In this document: piece by piece, positions 3,584 to 41,254 of the stretch
Position numbering within the stretch: position 1 is the first letter of the stretch
Layout of the letters: each line of letters begins with the position of its first letter
Translations under genes and position numbers: made by a program
Source of the DNA: a virus
Virus record (IMG/VR): IMGVR_UViG_3300045283_000142
Span: 1 to 41,254 of that record
Length of the DNA stretch: 41,254 nucleotides
Direction: 5' to 3' (one strand)
Notes under the pieces: model-generated
The model's input: only the letters and a program-made list of their open reading frames with translations
Database searches by the model: none
Told to the model about the DNA's origin: nothing

Positions 3584-4260
3584 GCAGTTCTCACGAGGGT
3601 CACGCCCCAAATGAAACCATTACCGCTGTTGACTTTCGTTTTGATGCCATAGCTCTTGTCAGAGCCCGATGGCCCGAAGGTGATCGCCGCACTCGTGGCG
3701 ACTTCCCCCGTAGTCGACGTGAACGTCATTGTCGCCAGTGGCGTATCCGGCGCCCCGTCGGAGAGGTCCACCAGCGCCACCGTCATCGTATTGCCGCCGC
3801 TCACCATCCCCGTGCCTTCAAGGACATACGTGCCGCTGAGATTGGCGGAATCCTCGACAAACACCGCTGTGCCGTTCTGCAGCGTATCGAACGTGGCGCC
3901 GCTCGCGTAGGTCGTGGCGGTGACGGGCGAGCTCGAGGTGCCGCCAAAGACGAAGATGCTGCCCAGCCCGCTGCTGCCCACGCCGATGGCCGTGATGGGG
4001 TCCACGGTTGGGCCGACTTGCACGCCCAGGGAGTTTTTCAGGATGAACTTGTAACTGGTTGGGGCCAGGTAAATCTGGCAGCGACCGGCGGCGTCCAGTT
4101 GGATCGGGAAGCTGTTCTGCGTGCCGATGCTGTCGCTGTAGGTGATGGCATGGGTGCTGGTGCCGGCGGCGTAGGTTTCGATGGTGCCGTTGGACAGCGG
4201 GTTGCCGTCATCGTCAAAAAACTGTTCCAGCCAATACGGGGCGAGGGTGTAGGACGGCAT
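3580..4260 (-). CDS. Tail fibre/spike head-binding-type protein
   Basis: A 226-residue virion protein. The N-terminal 85 residues match the common podophage fibre adaptor pattern: 'QFFDDDGNPLSNGTIETYAA' (about 13-32), a 'TYSDSIGT' element and 'FPIQLDAAGR' (about 51-60). This module attaches fibres or spikes to the tail machine. The C-terminal part is beta-rich. It is shorter than a full tailspike, so it may be a short adaptor that carries other receptor-binding proteins. Its start overlaps the upstream ejection-protein stop (TAATG) and its stop overlaps the signal-peptide fibre gene (ATGA). Confidence 0.8.
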   Translation of the reverse strand: MPSYTLAPYWLEQFFDDDGNPLSNGTIETYAAGTSTHAITYSDSIGTQNSFPIQLDAAGRCQIYLAPTSYKFILKNSLGVQVGPTVDPITAIGVGSSGLGSIFVFGGTSSSPVTATTYASGATFDTLQNGTAVFVEDSANLSGTYVLEGTGMVSGGNTMTVALVDLSDGAPDTPLATMTFTSTTGEVATSAAITFGPSGSDKSYGIKTKVNSGNGFIWGVTLVRTA

Positions 4261-5576
4261 TATTTGTGACTCGCGGCATATTTACGGGCGAATTCGGCTT
4301 CGGCGGCCCCGCCTTGCAACAGATCCTGTTGCAACTGCTCCAGCGGCGAGAGTTGCTTATGGCGCGCATTGAACTTCGCCGCCAGTTCCTCAGCCGGGCT
4401 CATTGGCGGCCGTTTGGCAATGATGTCGGCTACTGCTTGTTCCACTGGCTTGAACTTCGCCATCGCGGTGGCATTGGCGACTTCGACCGGCTTCGGCGTC
4501 TCCCCGAGCGCCTTGAACGCCTCCACCACCTGCTGTCGCGCCACGGTCGGATTGTAGGGCGCTGATGCCACCGTAGCGGCCTGAGGCGCTACAGAGGCCG
4601 CAGGGGCCGCCGCAGGGGCGGTCTGAGGCGCGGTTGCCTGTCGTTCTGCCCGATGACTCTCAAGGGCACGCTGAGAGGCTGCCGCTTCTTCTAAATCGCC
4701 TTCCTGCGTAAAGCGACGAATATCCGCTTTGATTGCCTCCGCATGGGCATCCTCAAGCGGTGTGCCCTTCGTCACCGCTGGGCCAGTCGCCGGCGCATTG
4801 AGCCGTTCCGCGCGATGAGCGTCCAAGGCTCGCTGTGATTGTGCGGCTTCTTCGAGATCGCCTTCGGATTGGAACCGACGAATGTCGGCCTTGATGCCTT
4901 CGGCATGCGCGTCTTCCACGGCCCCAAGTTGTGCAATCGATTTAGCCTTGGCAGCAGCAGGCATCGGATTGGCGGCCCGGTATTCAGCCCTGACGCGGGC
5001 GGTCAGTTCGCGCGGTGTCTCGGCAGGCGCTGGAGCCGCAGCGGGCTGCGGTGGGGCGACAGGCTCCGGCTCTCCCTGCAGCACGGCTTGCCCGACGTTC
5101 CGCGCCACCTTCAACGCATTCCCGATGCGAGGCGAGGCGATGCCCACGAGTTCAGGGGCGGATTGCGCGGCCGCCATGCCTCCGCGCATCGTGGCTCGAG
5201 CCGCATTCGCCACCGCTGGCACGACCACATCCGCCGCCTTCGGCCCGAAATAGCCCAGTGCGATACTCGCCCAGAGCTTCGGATCGGTCACATCGCGCTT
5301 CACCGCAGCGCCAATCTTCTGCATCGCATCCACTGGATCGTGCATCAGGTCGCCCAGTGTCACGCTATCAGGGTCGCCCGCGAAGGCCACCCCATTGCCT
5401 CCGCTGGAGGCGCTCATCTTGGCTTCAGGATGGGCTCCGATAGCGCCAGAAGACGGCAAATCGTCGTAGACGCCGGGATACTTGGCTTTGACCTGAGACT
5501 CCAGCGCCACGTCTGATAGGTCGTCATACGCGCCGGGATACTTCGCCCGAATCATCGCCGCGAGGGTCTGAGGCAT
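4260..5576 (-). CDS. Putative internal virion/ejection protein with duplicated repeats
   Basis: A 438-residue protein at the position of the last of three ejection-type genes. It begins with two copies of a 'KYPGAYDDL / KYPGVYDDL' motif (residues 12-20 and 32-40), a short repeat common at the start of phage internal proteins. A near-identical 38-residue repeat follows (about 221-258 and 275-312), containing 'IKADIRRF' and 'EGDLEEAA', with an Ala/Pro-rich linker between. The rest is Ala-rich and helical. An internal virion or DNA-ejection role is inferred from context; no lytic transglycosylase motif was seen. Confidence 0.65.
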   Translation of the reverse strand: MPQTLAAMIRAKYPGAYDDLSDVALESQVKAKYPGVYDDLPSSGAIGAHPEAKMSASSGGNGVAFAGDPDSVTLGDLMHDPVDAMQKIGAAVKRDVTDPKLWASIALGYFGPKAADVVVPAVANAARATMRGGMAAAQSAPELVGIASPRIGNALKVARNVGQAVLQGEPEPVAPPQPAAAPAPAETPRELTARVRAEYRAANPMPAAAKAKSIAQLGAVEDAHAEGIKADIRRFQSEGDLEEAAQSQRALDAHRAERLNAPATGPAVTKGTPLEDAHAEAIKADIRRFTQEGDLEEAAASQRALESHRAERQATAPQTAPAAAPAASVAPQAATVASAPYNPTVARQQVVEAFKALGETPKPVEVANATAMAKFKPVEQAVADIIAKRPPMSPAEELAAKFNARHKQLSPLEQLQQDLLQGGAAEAEFARKYAASHK

Positions 5577-32606: not shown

Positions 32607-32869
32607 ACGATGGGCTCTGTTTCAAGCTGACGAATGGGGGCGCCTTCACTGAATCCGACTGCATCGAACGACTCGCTATGCACGAGTAGCAGTAATTCGC
32701 CGTCGTTATCGATCTTGCGCAAGGTCGCATCGACGGGAAACGTGGTGGACAATCGCGCCCGCCCGCGCAACACGTCAAACAGGGAAGCCCTGTCGAGCAC
32801 GTAGATCACGCACTGGTCGACCGTGCTGCCCGTGCCGCGCTTCACCGCGTCTGCCCCTACCCAAGCCAT
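32603..32869 (-). CDS. Small hypothetical protein after the terminase
   Basis: An 88-residue protein with a strong GGAGGG site about five bases before the ATG; it overlaps the terminase stop by 13 nt. It reads as a beta-strand and helix mix ('VDQCVIYVLDRASLFDVLRG', then 'DNDGELLLLVHSE'). No family recognised. Confidence 0.6.
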   Translation of the reverse strand: MAWVGADAVKRGTGSTVDQCVIYVLDRASLFDVLRGRARLSTTFPVDATLRKIDNDGELLLLVHSESFDAVGFSEGAPIRQLETEPIV

Positions 32870-34350
32870 GACTGCCCTCCAGCCATCCCCACGCGCATTT
32901 TGGGCGCTATGATAACAGGTTTCGCTTTCACCACTTGCGCGAATGTCAGCGCCAGCGCATCCCCTTCGTCTGGACTGGGCACGTCCCGCGCCTTCATTTC
33001 CTTCTTGCTCTCGAGCCAGACGCGCTGCCGCAAGTCTTCGCGCAGCCCTGGCGCCGTCAGGTCGTTCTCCAGCCGTGCCGAGGTGTCAATCGCCCCGGTC
33101 AGCAGCCAATCCTTCATCTGTCCCCACATGAAGTCGCGCATGTAGCGGTATTTCTGGTCAGGGCTGTCCGCGCCGAAGTTCACTTCGGTGATGTTTCGGT
33201 GTCCAAGGCTGCGCAAGCGCGTTCCCACAGATCCAGCAATTCCCGCGGAGTCCAGAAACAACATGGCGACATGTTGCCCTCCATACGAGCTAGCGAGCAC
33301 ATCCGCGAGACGATTGGTAAGGACAGAGGGATCGCGTGTGAGCTCGCCTGGGATGCGAATAGCGGGAATACTTCGCCCGTCCCGTCCCCTTCGAAAGCGG
33401 ATGACGTTGCTGTCGGCACCTCCCCAGGCGAGGTCGCATCCGGCCACGAGTGGCTCGTCATCGAGTTCTTGCACAATTCGTTTTTGGGCATCTCTAACCC
33501 TTCCTTGGTCAATAAACTGCGCATCCTCCGCATTCGGCGGAATCCCCCGCACGCGCACCCGGAACCGATCTGAATCCTCGCCCCAGGCCTCGCGCTGTTC
33601 TTCAATCAGCGCCTTATTTGGGAACTGACACGTCCGCGCATCAATCACCCACGTCTTCCAGTGCTTCCCATCGCCGCCAAACACGATGTCGTGAAATGAG
33701 CCACGGCGCCGCGTCGGATTGCCAAACAAGAATTGCATCGGCTCGCCGTCCGTCAGCCCGCCTTCCTGCACTTCGTGGATGATTTCCGGCACGTTCGAAT
33801 CTTCATCATTGACGTAGAAGCTGGTCGACGCCGCATTGTGCTGGCCGGCGAACGATTCGCTATTGTCTGGGTCGCACGTCTGCGGGCTGCACTTCCACTG
33901 CTCCCGGAAGCCCTTGCGATACATGATGCTCGTATTGATGTCGAACCAGTGCGCCGTGATCGCCCGCTTCGCCCAGGTCGTGATACTGGGCCACGTCTTG
34001 TCCTGCAGCTGCGGCCCGGTGTTGGCCGTGATGACGCCCTTGGCGTTGCGCCGGGTCGACATGATGAACGACACCAGCATGCCTGTCAGGGCGCCTTTGC
34101 CGATGCCATGACCAGAACTCACAGCGGCTCTGATGGGCAGGACAGGATCGACGCCGTTGAAGTCTCTGAGCTTGATTTCGTGGCCGAGCCACTCGAGGAA
34201 CTCGCACTGCCAGGTGTCAGGCTCTGTGTAGGGCTCAAGCGGGCCGGGTTCGCCCCATTCGAACGCGCCGCGCACCCAGGCGAGCGGGTCGTTGTAGAGT
34301 TCGCCGCACCATTGGTGCAGTTCGTCTTCCGCGTTGCGGGCGGGAATCAT
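32857..34350 (-). CDS. terL: Terminase large subunit (ATPase-nuclease)
   Basis: A 497-residue protein. The ATG at 34350 overlaps the preceding 43-residue frame by ATGA, so I prefer it to the GTG at 34416. Motor domain: Walker A-type 'SGHGIGKG' (about 79-86), in which the usual Ser/Thr after Lys is Gly, and a Walker B-like 'FYVNDED' (about 178-184) followed by 'GNPTRRRGSF'. The RNase H-like nuclease has candidate acidic residues in 'GCDLAWGGADSNVI' (D306), 'MLFLDSAG' (D367) and 'DEGDALALTF' (about 464). The enzyme packages DNA through the portal. It follows the small-subunit gene. Confidence 0.9.
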   Translation of the reverse strand: MIPARNAEDELHQWCGELYNDPLAWVRGAFEWGEPGPLEPYTEPDTWQCEFLEWLGHEIKLRDFNGVDPVLPIRAAVSSGHGIGKGALTGMLVSFIMSTRRNAKGVITANTGPQLQDKTWPSITTWAKRAITAHWFDINTSIMYRKGFREQWKCSPQTCDPDNSESFAGQHNAASTSFYVNDEDSNVPEIIHEVQEGGLTDGEPMQFLFGNPTRRRGSFHDIVFGGDGKHWKTWVIDARTCQFPNKALIEEQREAWGEDSDRFRVRVRGIPPNAEDAQFIDQGRVRDAQKRIVQELDDEPLVAGCDLAWGGADSNVIRFRRGRDGRSIPAIRIPGELTRDPSVLTNRLADVLASSYGGQHVAMLFLDSAGIAGSVGTRLRSLGHRNITEVNFGADSPDQKYRYMRDFMWGQMKDWLLTGAIDTSARLENDLTAPGLREDLRQRVWLESKKEMKARDVPSPDEGDALALTFAQVVKAKPVIIAPKMRVGMAGGQSWLG

Positions 34351-34478
34351 GCAGGCGACTTGCGGAATTTGCGGAACAGCCAGTCGTAGATCGGACAGGT
34401 CGGCGCCCCTGAGCACAGATGCGGGAAGGAGCGGAACACGCCGAAGATGAAGTGGCCGTCCACGAAGGCGCGTCCCAT
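34347..34478 (-). CDS. 43-residue hypothetical protein before terL
   Basis: A short frame starting one base after the stop of the two-helix membrane gene and ending in an ATGA overlap with terL. Sequence highlights are 'GRAFVDGHFIFGVFRSF' then 'CSGAPTCPIYDWLF' and a basic end. The two Cys are seven residues apart. Tight packing on both sides argues for translation and it moves the likely terL start to 34350. Function unknown. Confidence 0.5.
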   Translation of the reverse strand: MGRAFVDGHFIFGVFRSFPHLCSGAPTCPIYDWLFRKFRKSPA

Positions 34479-34674: not shown

Positions 34675-35119
34675 TGGTGTCCTCTTTCTTCCGTGACCGC
34701 AGCTTCGCCATGTCCAACTTCGACAGCATCTCCTCGCTCGTCGTCACCTCGAGCTTGTCTTTAAGCCAGCCGTTCGCTCGAGCGCCTAACTCCAGCGCCC
34801 GCGTCTTGTCCCACAATTTGATTTCAATCGTGGTGTCCTGCGCATCATCGCCTGGCTGCAAGTTCTCGGTGCGCACCTTCACCGACGCAATCGCTTTCTG
34901 AATGCGTTCCGGCATCGCGCGCAATTCGCGCAGCGTGAAACTGCGCTTGTTGCCATGCACGGCTTCGAAGGCATCAATCAGGTTGGAATGGGCGAGGTAG
35001 CGCACTTCCTGATCCCAGTCTTCGCGCGTGATGCGATTCTTCGAGCCTTTGGTCCGGCCATGCCCAGGGCCGTTGACCAATTTGCCCTTATTTGGGGGAT
35101 TCGGATTACCGCGAGGCAT
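34667..35119 (-). CDS. Terminase small subunit-like protein
   Basis: A 150-residue protein. The N-terminus is a basic, Gly/Pro-rich DNA-contacting arm ('NPPNKGKLVNGPGHGRTKGS', about 8-27). The C-terminus has 'LWDKTRALELGARANGWLKD' (about 101-120), typical of small terminase family proteins. It lies immediately upstream of terL with two small genes between. It would recognise the packaging site; the GGAACC dyad just before it is a candidate. Confidence 0.8.
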   Translation of the reverse strand: MPRGNPNPPNKGKLVNGPGHGRTKGSKNRITREDWDQEVRYLAHSNLIDAFEAVHGNKRSFTLRELRAMPERIQKAIASVKVRTENLQPGDDAQDTTIEIKLWDKTRALELGARANGWLKDKLEVTTSEEMLSKLDMAKLRSRKKEDTSD

Positions 35120-35199
35120 TTACGATTCTTTCCACGGTTCTCGTCAAGGATTGTGCCATAGCGGTCAAGAGCGAGAAGAGGCGTTGATGGGTGCCATGT

Positions 35200-35410
35200 G
35201 GGAACCGGGAACCGTGAGGCCTCTGCATAATGTATAGCCTGAATGCATATTGACCTCGCAAGATTGATTTGGTTCCTTCGGTTCCCCATGTATATGGGAA
35301 CCGCGGAACGGAACCGGATGCTGAGGAATATGCATTAAAACACGATCTGGTCTTGATTCGGTTCCAAAACCTCGTGGGAACCGCTAGGAACCACTGGAAC
35401 CGCAGGAACC
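35200..35410. repeat. GGAACC/GGTTCC repeat cluster, candidate replication origin or pac site
   Basis: Eleven copies of the hexamer occur in about 210 bp: GGAACC at 35201, 35208, 35297, 35310, 35377, 35387, 35396 and 35405, and GGTTCC at 35271, 35280 and 35360. The last four GGAACC copies are spaced 9-10 bases apart, like iterons, and lie inside the repA 3' end; the others are in the 215-base gap before the terminase small gene. Apart from this and the dyad 35242-35336, the gap holds only weak promoter-like sequence. Iteron-type repeats beside a RepA-like gene suggest an origin; location next to terminase also allows a pac site. Confidence 0.6.
35242..35336. repeat. Large imperfect dyad centred near 35290
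   Basis: The outer arms are a perfect 10-bp inverted repeat: AATGCATATT (35242-35251) and AATATGCATT (35327-35336). Inside them GGTTCC at 35271 and 35280 face GGAACC at 35297 and 35310, and CGGTTCCCCAT (35279-35289) faces ATGGGAACCG (35294-35303, one base shorter). The right arm abuts the repA stop codon (35335-35337). The flank 35225-35270 is AT-rich for this genome, which fits a DNA-unwinding or protein-binding site. Confidence 0.65.
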
Positions 35411-36459
35411 GAATAGACGTATGGGCTGTGCTTCGTGCCTGAGCCTACACAAGATATGGTGCCTTCGGTCACAAGTTGGCGGATGCCGCGGAGCAGGGTC
35501 TGCTTGCGGCCTTCGACCAACTCGAGCCATTGGGAACTAGTGAGACGCACTTCAGGGGCGTTCGCAAGCGCCTTATAGAGCGTGTCCATCACCGCGCGCA
35601 TCTCGGCCTGTTCGCGCATGTCACCGAGCAGCACACGGCCATCATCAGTCAGTCGAATCACGCGCTCCTCCAAATCTGGGCCGATACGTTGACGGGTGGT
35701 GAGGGTGCGGAAGCCACGAAGTTTAGTCAGGATGAGCGTGTTATCCACGCTGCCGCTGATGGCCGTGGAGCCCAGGACGCTATCGAGTGGGTCACGGTCG
35801 GTCGCTTTCCCAGCATGGTGGATGAGCAGCAGCGCAGCGCCGCTTTCCCGCGCGCATTGAATCACCGGGTCGAAGGCTTTCGTGACCTCGGCGTAATCGT
35901 CCATGGATTTGACTTGCAGGAGGCGCTGAAGGGTATCCACGATGATCAGCGCTGGCTTCTGCTCGCCGGCCATTTGCATCATCGCTTTCATCAGCCCAGG
36001 CTTGGCCGGGCCGATATACATCTGGAGCCGCTTGCCTTCTTCCTCGGTGAGATGGAATTGGCGGAAATGGGAGAGATGGTCGGCCTTGCGTCCTTCCAGG
36101 GCGATATACCAGACGACGCCGAGCTCGCATTGAGAGCCGAGCCAGTCATCGCCGCGGATGATGGACACGGCGAGATGCCGAGCGGCGGTGGTTTTGCCCA
36201 CCTTGGGCTTCGCGACGAGCAGACAGACGCTGCCAGCCGGGATGCGGTCTTCCACGACCCAACGTGTCAGGTCTTCGGGTTCATTCAGCATCAGATCAAT
36301 CCCTGTGAGCACGAAGGCGGGAGCCACCGGCTTGCCATTGGTCTTGTGTAGCACCTCGCCAGGGGCTGGAGGAGGGGCGTTCGCGTCGAGTCCGTCTAAG
36401 GCGTCGAAGTCTTCTCGGCGCACTATTGCGCCTGAGCGATCTGAGCCAGCATGGGGCAC
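35335..36459 (-). CDS. RepA-like hexameric helicase/AAA ATPase
   Basis: A 374-residue protein if started at the GTG at 36459; a later GTG at 36423 is the alternative. RecA/RepA-like core: Walker A 'AKPKVGKTTAARHL' (83-96), 'LGVVWYIALEG' (113-123), Walker B 'PALIIVDTLQRL' (169-180), and the 'GAALLLIHHAGKATDRDPLD' (207-226) segment typical of RepA-type AAA_25 helicases. The C-terminal 90 residues form a winged-helix-like part ending in a 'VPAVPVVP' tail that overlaps the GGAACC repeats. It likely loads replication at the adjacent repeats. The phage lacks its own polymerase, so host replication enzymes would be recruited. Confidence 0.8.
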   Translation of the reverse strand: MPHAGSDRSGAIVRREDFDALDGLDANAPPPAPGEVLHKTNGKPVAPAFVLTGIDLMLNEPEDLTRWVVEDRIPAGSVCLLVAKPKVGKTTAARHLAVSIIRGDDWLGSQCELGVVWYIALEGRKADHLSHFRQFHLTEEEGKRLQMYIGPAKPGLMKAMMQMAGEQKPALIIVDTLQRLLQVKSMDDYAEVTKAFDPVIQCARESGAALLLIHHAGKATDRDPLDSVLGSTAISGSVDNTLILTKLRGFRTLTTRQRIGPDLEERVIRLTDDGRVLLGDMREQAEMRAVMDTLYKALANAPEVRLTSSQWLELVEGRKQTLLRGIRQLVTEGTISCVGSGTKHSPYVYSVPAVPVVPSGSHEVLEPNQDQIVF

Positions 36460-36596: not shown

Positions 36597-36953
36597 TTAC
36601 AAGGGTTCCAGCGTCTTGAAAAACGTCTCGAGGAACGCGATGGCGGCGCCGCTTTTCACCATCGTCCCAGTAAATCGGAATACAAACCACCCCGCGGCGT
36701 TGAGCAGGTTGGCCTTCTCGCAGTCGCTCGCCATGCCGCCCGCGCGATTGTGACGGCCCTGCAGCATCTCGCCGCCATCGACCTCGCAGCACACCTTCAG
36801 CGTCGGCCAGGCGAGGTCTGAGCGGAAGAGGCGCCCTTCCACACCGCGGTGCTCGCGCACCGGCTCCGGCAGCCGCAGGGCGCGAATCTGCAACGCAAGC
36901 AAATCTGCTAAGTCGGTTTTATTCGCGGTGATGTTGGGACGGCGCAGGTTCAT
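36597..36953 (-). CDS. Vsr/DUF559-like PD-(D/E)XK endonuclease
   Basis: A 118-residue protein. The ATG at 36953 is chosen for its ATGA overlap with the methyltransferase gene. It has the nuclease pattern of DUF559/Vsr-like enzymes: 'RLFRSDLAWPTLKVCCEVDG' (about 41-60), with acidic residues D47 and E58-x-D60, then 'GRHNRAGGMASDCEKANLLN' (about 66-85) and 'GWFVFRFT'. The family nicks or cuts DNA; Vsr acts at T:G mismatches made by cytosine methylation. Following a C5 methyltransferase it may repair or restrict, or act as a general junction-cleaving nuclease. Confidence 0.78.
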   Translation of the reverse strand: MNLRRPNITANKTDLADLLALQIRALRLPEPVREHRGVEGRLFRSDLAWPTLKVCCEVDGGEMLQGRHNRAGGMASDCEKANLLNAAGWFVFRFTGTMVKSGAAIAFLETFFKTLEPL

Positions 36954-37939
36954 GGATGCCACGCTTTCGCAATGTGTCGGGCGAGTGCTAAAGGTATTTT
37001 CGCGATGTGCGCGGAGGCGGCTTTTCGGGCGGAACTATGACTGGACGTGCGCGGCTTCTTCCACCCGAAGGCGTTATGATGATCGCGCTCCGCGCCGCCG
37101 TCATCGCCCTTGATGCCATCGTCCTTGAGAGCGTCCTCGTAGTGGACACGCTCAACTAACTTCCGTCCGTCTGGGTTCTGCCCATGTCCGCTCGTCGTGT
37201 TGTGCGCCACGTTGAACAAGGAGCCGCCGTCGTTTTTGATTGCCTTCGCTCGCTGCACACTCGGCTCATGATCAGCGCCATGAAATGACGGGGAAGGCAA
37301 GCCTGTTTGCTCGAAGAAATGAAAATTGCTCGTGCCTTTCTTAACTCTTCGAACAATCGGCATCAGTGCCGGCACATCGCCCCACAGATAGAAACTCCCG
37401 TAGTGCCAGCGAGCGCGCCCGACCCACTTCTGTGCCCCGCAGACATTCTCCACCACCATCGGGATGTGATGCCCTGCCGCCTCTGACGCTTCCCGCTGAA
37501 TCCGAAAGCATGCCTCAAAGAGGCTGTTATCAGGCGGTGGCAATGCCTTGGCCAGTTTCCACGGCATCGCCCGATACGAATACGCCTGGCACGGGGGACT
37601 GGCGACAATCAACGCCGCGCTCTTGAACTGCGAGCCTTGAATCGTCAGCACATCCTGCAGCACAAGTTGCGCGGGATACTCCATCCAACGGCCCGTCAGT
37701 GGGGCTTCTAGCATCGCGCATTGATTGGCGTAGTTGAACGACCGATCGCGCGAGTCGGTCGATGTCGAATTGAAATCCACCTTCTCTCGCTGCACCTTGC
37801 GGCCCGTAGATTCGCCCATGTCACGCTCAGGATACCGATGCCGCTCCACATCAAAGCCCACGACGCGGTAGCCTTCAGCGAGGAGCCCTTCCGTCCAGCC
37901 GCCAAGCCCGCAGAACAGATCGACGGCTAGAGGGCGCAT
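36950..37939 (-). CDS. C5-cytosine DNA methyltransferase
   Basis: A 329-residue protein with the key C5-MTase motifs in order: motif I 'VDLFCGLGGWTEGL' (6-19), motif IV 'ASPPCQAYSY' with the catalytic Cys at 117, motif VI 'VVENVCGAQ' (162-170) and a C-terminal motif X-like 'IPLALARHIAKAW' (315-327). It has an insertion at about 40-75 and a family-typical 'GSFYLWGDVPAL' (181-192). It methylates cytosine in a target sequence that cannot be predicted here, probably to protect phage DNA from restriction or for regulation. It overlaps a Vsr-like nuclease gene by 4 nt. Confidence 0.87.
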   Translation of the reverse strand: MRPLAVDLFCGLGGWTEGLLAEGYRVVGFDVERHRYPERDMGESTGRKVQREKVDFNSTSTDSRDRSFNYANQCAMLEAPLTGRWMEYPAQLVLQDVLTIQGSQFKSAALIVASPPCQAYSYRAMPWKLAKALPPPDNSLFEACFRIQREASEAAGHHIPMVVENVCGAQKWVGRARWHYGSFYLWGDVPALMPIVRRVKKGTSNFHFFEQTGLPSPSFHGADHEPSVQRAKAIKNDGGSLFNVAHNTTSGHGQNPDGRKLVERVHYEDALKDDGIKGDDGGAERDHHNAFGWKKPRTSSHSSARKAASAHIAKIPLALARHIAKAWHP

Positions 37940-38382: not shown

Positions 38383-38601
38383 ATGGACAACACACCTTAC
38401 GACGTGGACGACACCCGGTGCGATGCGTGCGGCCGCGACACGGCCCGCCTCTCGCCCCCGCAAGCCGTGGAACTCTGCGATGACTGCGCCGCCGCTGAGG
38501 AAACCACCTGCTTCTACTGCTGGGAGCCCACCGAGGACGGCGCCGATTACCATGACGCCTGCCGCATCAACGCGCAGGCCGACAATCAGGAGGCACGATG
38601 A
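38383..38601 (+). CDS. Cys-rich zinc-binding-like protein
   Basis: A 72-residue acidic protein with Cys pairs 'RCDACGRD' (about 12-19), 'CDDCAAAEETTCFYCWEP' (about 33-50) and a final 'CRIN', a layout like two treble-clef or zinc-ribbon knuckles. The start is ATG 38383; a TTG two codons upstream is ignored. It overlaps the next gene by ATGA. Function unknown; binding to nucleic acid or protein is a guess. Confidence 0.72.
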   Translation: MDNTPYDVDDTRCDACGRDTARLSPPQAVELCDDCAAAEETTCFYCWEPTEDGADYHDACRINAQADNQEAR

Positions 38602-40273: not shown

Positions 40274-41154
40274 GCACCGACCTTGTTGTCACCGCGCCGG
40301 CCGTGACGAACGACCAACTCGCCCTCATCAAAGCCACCGTCGCGAAGGACGCCACGACCGACGAACTGAAGCTCTACCTCTACGACTGCGCTCGCATCGG
40401 CGTGCATCCCTTAGACAAGCTGCTCCATTTCACCAAGCGGTCCGGTAAATACACCCCCATCACGAGCATTGACCTGATGCGCATCCGGGCCGCGGAGACA
40501 GGCGAACTCGCCGGCAGCGATGATCCCGAGTTCACCGGCACGCCCGCCCAGAACGACTTCACCGCCCGCGTCACGGTGTGGCGGCTGGTGCAGGGCACGC
40601 GCTGTGCCTTCTCAGCCACGGCTCGCTGGTCGGAATACAAGCCGGATCAGGCATTCATGTGGAACAAGATGCCCCACACGATGTTGGGCAAGTGCGCCGA
40701 GGCGCTGGCGCTGAGAAAAGGCTTTCCGAGGCAGTTGGCGGGCCTCTACGCGAAAGAGGAGATGGACCAAGCGGAGAAGGGCGAGAAGGCTGGTGTCTAT
40801 ACGAAGACAGTGCCAGCCGCCCTGACGAACAACGCCAAGGTGACGCTTGAAGTGAATCCAGAGGAAGACGCGCTGCCGCTGGACCAGCACATCCTCAAAG
40901 CCATCAAGCCGTCGAAGGACAAACTCATCGTCGGCACCGCCGTGACGCACAGGGGCGAAGAACTCCACATCGTCAAAGCCGACATCCTGGCGATTGCTGA
41001 AGAACTGGTGAAAACCGGCCAGCCGATGCTGGGCATCACGGCGATGAAGAATGGTCGCACGTTCGTCCGGGAGTTCATGTCGCCGGAAGCGCAGACCGAG
41101 AATCCAGTGAAGCCAGGGCCGTCGATGGTCACGGCAGACGATTTGAGCTTCTGA
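40270..41154 (+). CDS. bet: Bet/RecT-family single-strand annealing protein
   Basis: A 294-residue protein of the Redbeta/RecT superfamily. The Bet pattern is clear: 'ARIGVHPLDKLLHFTKRSGK' (41-60), 'TSIDLMRIRAAETGELAGSD' (65-84), 'ARVTVWRL' (99-106), and 'MLGKCAEALALRKGFPRQLA' (138-157) followed by 'GLYAKEEM'. It anneals complementary single strands during recombination and replication. No lambda-Exo, RecE or SSB gene was found nearby; the Vsr/DUF559-like nuclease is the only candidate exonuclease-type partner. The C-terminal 100 residues are divergent. Its stop overlaps the TubC-like gene (TGATG). Confidence 0.87.
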   Translation: MSTDLVVTAPAVTNDQLALIKATVAKDATTDELKLYLYDCARIGVHPLDKLLHFTKRSGKYTPITSIDLMRIRAAETGELAGSDDPEFTGTPAQNDFTARVTVWRLVQGTRCAFSATARWSEYKPDQAFMWNKMPHTMLGKCAEALALRKGFPRQLAGLYAKEEMDQAEKGEKAGVYTKTVPAALTNNAKVTLEVNPEEDALPLDQHILKAIKPSKDKLIVGTAVTHRGEELHIVKADILAIAEELVKTGQPMLGITAMKNGRTFVREFMSPEAQTENPVKPGPSMVTADDLSF

Positions 41155-41254
41155 TGGCTCCCATCGAGTTGAAGGGCGGGCTGATTGTGGATACGGCAGC
41201 TCTCGGTCTCGCTCTGGAGCTTGAAGCGGCCGGCATCACACTCACGGGGAAGGA
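41128..41254. repeat. Right copy of the 127-bp terminal overlap
   Basis: Exact copy of 1-127. It contains the end of the Bet/RecT gene and the first third of the TubC-like gene, which continues at position 128 on the circle. Confidence 0.95.
41154..41254 (+). CDS. TubC-like protein, truncated by the window edge (second copy of 27-127)
   Basis: Not a separate gene: it is the first 33 codons of the TubC-like gene, repeated because of the terminal overlap. The full gene is at 27-242. Confidence 0.9.
   Translation, partial: MAPIELKGGLIVDTAALGLALELEAAGITLTGK

Follow-up and report, generated by a model that had tools for sequence, protein, structure and literature searches.

A hexamer array at the 3' end of a RepA-like helicase gene is a probable iteron replication origin in a phage genome

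We analyzed virus record IMGVR_UViG_3300045283_000142 over its whole length (all 41,254 bases; hereafter, the window). Near DNA matches of the window were not found in named phages. An identical 127-bp direct repeat occupies both ends (1-127 and 41128-41254), so the record is probably a complete genome, either terminally redundant or assembled as a circle. The region of interest contains a repA-like gene, an array of short repeats at its 3' end and the terminase genes (Table 1); relatives of the terS candidate were 59-82% identical over the best segment.

Table 1. Features of the array and of the genes around it, with positions in the window
Feature	Position	Strand	Remark
Iteron array	35201..35410	.	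11 exact GGAACC/GGTTCC
Inverted iteron pair around TATAT core	35280..35302	.	Kept in relatives
AT-richer spacer 1 (57 bp), between facing iterons	35214..35270	.	58% AT vs 40% in surrounding DNA
AT-richer spacer 2 (44 bp)	35316..35359	.	59% AT
Outer AATGCATATT inverted repeat	35242..35336	.	95 bp end to end
repA-like gene, predicted initiator-helicase, 374 aa	35335..36459	-	AAA_25/RecA-fold ATPase core plus C-terminal winged helix (Pfam, profile, model)
C-terminal winged-helix domain coding, residues 282-350	35410..35616	-	Array adjoins its 3' end
Predicted disordered RepA tail coding, residues 351-374	35338..35409	-	Overlapped by iterons
Small terminase (terS) candidate, 150 aa	34667..35119	-	Pfam Terminase_2 E 2.5e-4, below its cut-off
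Large terminase	32857..34416	-	PHROG terminase large subunit, E 6.4e-25
Conserved 121-aa gene upstream of repA	36597..36962	-	phrog_503, function unknown in PHROG; similarity does not track array

Copies of GGAACC lie in the plus orientation at 35201, 35208, 35297, 35310, 35377, 35387, 35396 and 35405, and in the inverted orientation at 35271, 35280 and 35360; a partial twelfth copy, GGAACG, occupies 35305-35310. These exact positions confirm the first-pass annotation, which had reported eleven copies in 210 bp, three of them inverted and four (35377, 35387, 35396 and 35405) spaced 9-10 bp apart. The hexamer was the densest of the window (11 copies in 210 bp); with the array taken out, no hexamer of the window exceeded 6 copies over that length, and in 60 order-3 Markov genomes the maximum for any hexamer was 4-6 copies per 210 bp. 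Over the whole record we counted 28 copies against a shuffle mean of 18.3, with 17 in the 41 kb outside the array. The local enrichment that had been put forward as a check was therefore observed, and 35201-35410 forms a defined region of dense, short repeated sites of the kind expected of an iteron origin.

The array begins at 35410, the codon at which the coding for the RepA winged helix ends, and extends toward terS, stopping 81 bp short of the terS start codon. Consequently, five copies (35360-35410) fall within the final part of the repA reading frame, where the tail is encoded, and six lie outside the frame. The earlier placement of the array between repA and the terminase genes thus holds for these six but not for the other five.

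AT-rich DNA beside the sites is a further mark of an iteron origin, and the two spacers were AT-richer than their surroundings, although the enrichment was modest (58-59% vs 40%); spacer 1 may be a melting region. Each spacer also contains one of the outer 10-bp arms, AATGCATATT at 35242-35251 and AATATGCATT at 35327-35336, the right one overlapping the repA stop codon (35335-35337). This repeat was indeed perfect, spanned 95 bp and lay at the repA stop, as had been described, but L023, L026 and L033, the closest relatives, did not show the conservation that would have made it the key element, and we rejected it in that role. Instead, the conserved dyad is the inverted iteron pair around TATAT, which at 35281-35301 reads GTTCCC-CATGTATAT-GGGAAC with 9 bp between its arms.

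The RepA-like protein matched Pfam AAA_25 (E 1.2e-26), and a profile search against solved structures placed RSF1010 RepA first (1g8y, E 4.5e-14). Its AlphaFold2 model (mean pLDDT 85.6) had RSF1010 RepA (1olo) as the top Foldseek match, and the best profile and fold matches of the ATPase core were the RSF1010 RepA structures 1g8y, 1nlf and 1olo. The core has the RecA fold with a P-loop that marks an RSF1010 RepA-type protein, and the protein is predicted, from homology only, to be a hexamer with helicase activity. In the model, the C-terminal winged helix consists of helices 282-299, 308-312 and 319-331 and a two-stranded wing (336-338 and 348-350), with pLDDT mostly >90, and the region gave profile matches to AdcR-type winged-helix regulators. 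We infer that this domain, with its predicted DNA binding, reads the array. The last 24 residues were modeled with low confidence (pLDDT block means 38-63), and most of this tail is missing in the homologues from L023, L026 and L033.

We collected relatives with a TerS search, which returned 18 viral loci, and with a TerL search, from which 80 of 95 relatives were kept. In closer relatives with a complete gene upstream of terS, this gene encoded a helicase of one of several unrelated types, AAA_25 (at least three kinds), VapE (PF05272) or DUF5906, and arrays lay at the 3' end of whichever gene filled this slot, mostly built from other hexamers than that of the window. The closest RepA relatives were accompanied by 8-10 copies of GGGAAC, and other AAA_25 types by GGCTCA or GGTGAC; VapE-type genes were found beside GGTTAC, GGTAAC, GGTGGA, GGTGGC or GGGTAG, and one DUF5906-type gene beside AATCAG. 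Array scores of 24 loci, several of them near-duplicates, were above all 200 shuffles in 14, tied with the best shuffle in five and below it in five; no array above the shuffles was found in L006, L009, L011, L016 and L047 (5 of the 24 scored loci). In the weak loci L006 and L016, the top hexamer is probably not a real motif; both were kept in the counts.

In most loci with at least five copies, clusters of sites, usually facing each other, were separated by 37-84 bp (range searched, 35-95 bp), and in each of these loci this gap was higher in AT than the locus as a whole (45-71% vs 38-42%). Spacers of the VapE and DUF5906 types (L002, L018, L053 and L005) also contained stretches of alternating purines and pyrimidines, such as GCGCGCGCAC, close to TATATA. 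In distant terminase relatives, TGGACA and other arrays immediately preceded terS, and a DUF5906/RepB-primase protein was encoded ~1.5 kb further up; TGGACA or GGGTCA arrays directly upstream of terS and away from the helicase gene were seen in L066, L071, L078, L077, L096 and L098.

Eight named records were also inspected for arrays at the helicase 3' end. Rhizobium phage RHph_N65 (MN988536.1) carries 13 copies of CTCCGC just downstream of its helicase/primase gene. In this cultured phage, ~13 repeats of the GGCGGAGAT type were seen at 4180-4450 of the locus (L160), directly 3' of the annotated gene. Microbacterium phage Fizzles has eight copies of GTGTCA inside the 3' part of an AAA_25-type primase/helicase gene (L159, 3956-4093), and plasmid pATHE01 has 12 copies of AGTGAA inside the 3' part of an AAA_25-type AAA ATPase gene (L164, 1738-1910). 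No array was found at the helicase 3' end of the AAA_25 phages SheckWes, SteamedHams (Gordonia), Ixel and Mae-JY30; pGXY040, an IncQ plasmid, has repC as a separate gene.

A search of viral contigs with the single RepA protein returned no relatives; a query built from four aligned close RepA sequences recovered 39 loci in viral contigs and 19 in genome contigs. From these 58 loci we left out L110 and L132, in which the gene runs off the contig, the close type-1 loci L099-L106, and L124, which has too little downstream sequence, leaving 47 distant AAA_25 loci. Within 500 bp around the helicase stop in these 47 loci, GGGAAC ranked first of 2071 hexamers (48 copies vs 12.0 expected), GGAACC ranked fourth of 2071 (38 vs 11.3 expected), and GGAAC ranked second of 512 pentamers, behind ACTAG. 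After removal of the duplicates L112 and L127, the inverted unit GTTCC-N6-16-GGAAC occurred 14 times (in 11 loci) in the 31 kb near stops and six times in the 241 kb elsewhere in the remaining 45 distinct loci. It had the top count among the 350 inverted pentamers seen near stops, and TATA lay between the arms in seven of the 14 units. The motif was also found in bacterial genome contigs, again at the ends of AAA_25 genes, and in some of the distant homologues the ATPase is preceded by a Toprim or Prim-Pol primase domain. In L134 and L135, the helicase 3' end bears a different array, of CAATGG/CATTGA and overlapping hexamers in up to 10-11 copies.

We then approached the same element from the DNA side and searched viral contigs for the pattern GTTCCCN{1,5}TATAN{1,5}GGGAAC without any protein information. 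The pattern occurred at no fewer than 120 loci, and an AAA_25 winged-helix HMM matched 30 among the 120 listed; a control pattern with rearranged letters gave 105 loci, one of which had an AAA_25 winged-helix gene (Fisher p 4e-8 for the matches listed, the loci not being independent). Among the matches listed, the element lay 68-178 bp past the stop of the matched gene in 29 of 30 and at 631 bp in the other (L268). Five of these 30 were close type-1 loci (E <1e-100), one (L243) was previously known, one was L268 with its far element, and 23 were new, falling into seven clusters. Where at least five GGAAC lay in the 420 bp around the element, the gene was present in 24 of 35 loci, as against 6 of 85 otherwise (matches listed). 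The sole control-pattern locus with an AAA_25 gene, L307, contains CCTGTCC/GGACAGG repeats around CCCTATAGAGGG in the same place (~1958). Given these repeats of its own, this exception also fits the picture.

For covariation we used 17 loci (136 pairs), thinned by hand from 22 with near-identical ones removed, and scored an array as shared when the top hexamer of one locus occurred at least three times in the region of the other. When TerS was controlled for, array sharing tracked helicase identity (partial r 0.575, p 0.0002, the smallest value that 5000 permutations can give); when the helicase was controlled for, it did not track TerS identity (partial r 0.073, p 0.20). Arrays were shared by 6 of 7 pairs with helicases at least 65% identical, by 6 of 22 pairs in the 50-65% range, by 1 of 60 pairs in which neither protein was similar and by 0 of 47 pairs with TerS at least 50% but helicase less than 50% identical. 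Since only 6 of the 22 intermediate pairs shared, the motif appears to drift fast. A looser k-mer measure pointed in the same direction less cleanly (helicase partial r 0.386, p 0.0002; TerS 0.135, p 0.07), with 7 of the 47 TerS-similar, helicase-dissimilar pairs sharing something. In these relatives, helicase and array thus seem to change together in a lock-and-key manner, and a third mark of an iteron origin, a cis-encoded initiator with a predicted DNA-binding domain and a motif that covaries with it, is also present. An attempt to map specificity to the C-terminal domain in the VapE set did not discriminate it from the core, as the domain predicted sharing no better (r 0.50 vs 0.62); the winged helix is therefore the reader only by inference.

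Overall, our comparisons of sequence make it very probable that the array is the iteron replication origin of the phage, read by the adjacent RepA-like helicase. The first-pass annotation had offered either an origin bound by the RepA-like ATPase or a pac site recognized by the small terminase. The former is now well supported by the covariation, by the motif at the 3' ends of distant AAA_25 genes and by a DNA-only search that finds such genes, and the latter is disfavored. The GC-skew inflection proposed as a further check was an ambiguous and weak pointer, with a minimum at 34927 after detrending and at 38587 in the raw curve, both confounded by gene direction.

It is unlikely that the array is instead an operator or silencer for a transcription regulator, be it a repressor or RepA itself in autoregulation or copy control. 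A regulator could make use of many short sites in either orientation, and winged helices are typical of regulators as well; however, no sigma-70-type promoter or terminator pattern was found in a scan of 34900-35700, and the array is located at the 3' rather than the 5' end of the helicase gene. Furthermore, the 121-aa neighbor does not track the array, being 67-70% identical in L002, L015, L018 and L020, which have other arrays, and 37-42% identical in loci with the array of the window, and the primase-helicase fusions among the homologues also speak against a regulator. Plasmid iterons often act in both origin and regulation, and RepA may autoregulate in addition to any origin function.

We regard it as very unlikely that the array is a pac site, at which the adjacent small terminase would bind the hexamers and start headful packaging. 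The array does lie directly upstream of terS, and the 127-bp terminal repeat is compatible with terminal redundancy; the arrays of distant terminase relatives also lie just upstream of terS though the helicase is ~1.5 kb away, which may point to a link with the terminase side. However, TerS proteins that are 92% (L015-L018) or 85% (L003-L005) identical stand beside different arrays, and the TerS of the window is 73-78% identical to those of L003, L005, L006, L009, L011 and L014, none of which shares its array; for L003, L005 and L006 the figure is 75-78%. Conversely, L023 and L026, which have the motif of the window, encode RepA proteins 55-57% identical to that of the window (51-54% coverage-weighted) and TerS proteins with undetectable similarity, and the bacterial genome contigs with the motif at AAA_25 gene ends likewise argue against packaging. 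We rejected the pac site for this array, as the sharing of arrays does not follow TerS identity; a pac site may lie elsewhere in the same region.

It is scarcely credible that the repeats have no binding role and arose from the repetitive RepA tail (VPAVPVVPSGS) or from a simple repeat that is spreading. Five copies are in frame and encode the predicted disordered tail, but the other six fall outside the coding sequence, and three of the eleven are inverted. Moreover, the array persists in close homologues that lack most of the tail, and the inverted unit is conserved in distant homologues.

If the array is the origin read by RepA, the C-terminal winged helix would bind GGGAACC half-sites, and the inverted pair at 35280-35302, together with the facing clusters around the AT-richer spacers, would position RepA rings in opposite orientations. 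The spacers would then melt, and RepA would load itself in both directions as a hexameric helicase and start forks. We propose this order of events by analogy to SaPI Rep, SCCmec Cch2 and PLE RepA-origin modules.

Initiator-helicases that have iterons of their own are already known. The AAA+ core family of SaPI Rep differs from the RecA/RSF1010-RepA-type family, and the core of the window protein is of AAA_25/RecA type, so the system of the window would work like SaPI Rep/ori without being a member of that family. SaPI Rep helicases have been reported to bind iterons directly downstream of their own gene via their own DNA-binding domain (PMC7581432). As in SaPI Rep/ori and SCCmec Cch2, the window has a helicase with an origin-like array directly at the 3' end of its gene and a C-terminal domain of a DNA-binding type, but it is a phage genome and not a satellite, and its array binding is predicted. 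RSF1010 (IncQ) RepA resembles the window protein in its ATPase core, but there the iterons are bound by a separate protein, RepC, whereas the helicase of the window has a fused winged helix. The lambda O initiator has its origin repeats within its own gene, and initiators of the TP901-1/Tuc2009 and lambdoid O types recruit a helicase, whereas the likely reader in the window is itself a predicted helicase. The replisome organizers of the lactococcal phages TP901-1 and Tuc2009 have been reported to bind direct repeats within their own gene (PMC8965321). In the same paper, gp46 of Lactococcus phage F13, AAA_25-related like the RepA of the window, is described as a RecA-like RepA-family helicase that unwinds DNA 5'-3', and the passages on gp46 describe no array, the word "winged" being absent from the text (PMC8965321).

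Swapping of initiators and origins also has a precedent. In the PLE satellites of Vibrio cholerae, the DNA-binding domain of the initiator and the iteron origin covary and are exchanged as a module, and an origin-directed nuclease appears to select for RepA-origin change (PMC8263062). PLE RepA is described as a RepA_N initiator for which primase/helicase activity is not predicted (PMC7145576). The PLE origin has three ~30-bp semi-palindromic iterons, and PLE swaps a domain, whereas the phage group of the window swaps whole helicase families. In pRN1, the essential region downstream of the replication gene is reported to be a stem-loop (PMC4234260). We did not find, in open-licence PubMed Central papers, an initiator-helicase of the RecA-fold RSF1010-RepA type with a conserved inverted core that is swapped with unrelated helicases in one phage slot.

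More broadly, we lean somewhat toward the view that AAA_25 winged-helix proteins are widespread self-recruiting initiator-helicases with a recognizable origin core, GTTCCC-TATA-GGGAAC in one branch and other hexamers elsewhere. One genomic slot would then swap cassettes of initiator-helicase and origin from unrelated families. Each phage would thereby have a replication code of its own, for which satellites, superinfecting phages or origin-targeting defenses may have selected. A large AAA_25 branch would thereby gain a concrete role, comprising a helicase, a likely reader domain and a cognate origin recognizable from sequence, and a DNA pattern alone retrieves AAA_25 winged-helix genes. Arrays also occur in cultured relatives (Rhizobium phage RHph_N65 and Microbacterium phage Fizzles), and the swap of unrelated helicases and their arrays in one slot would be a natural experiment on initiator-origin specificity.
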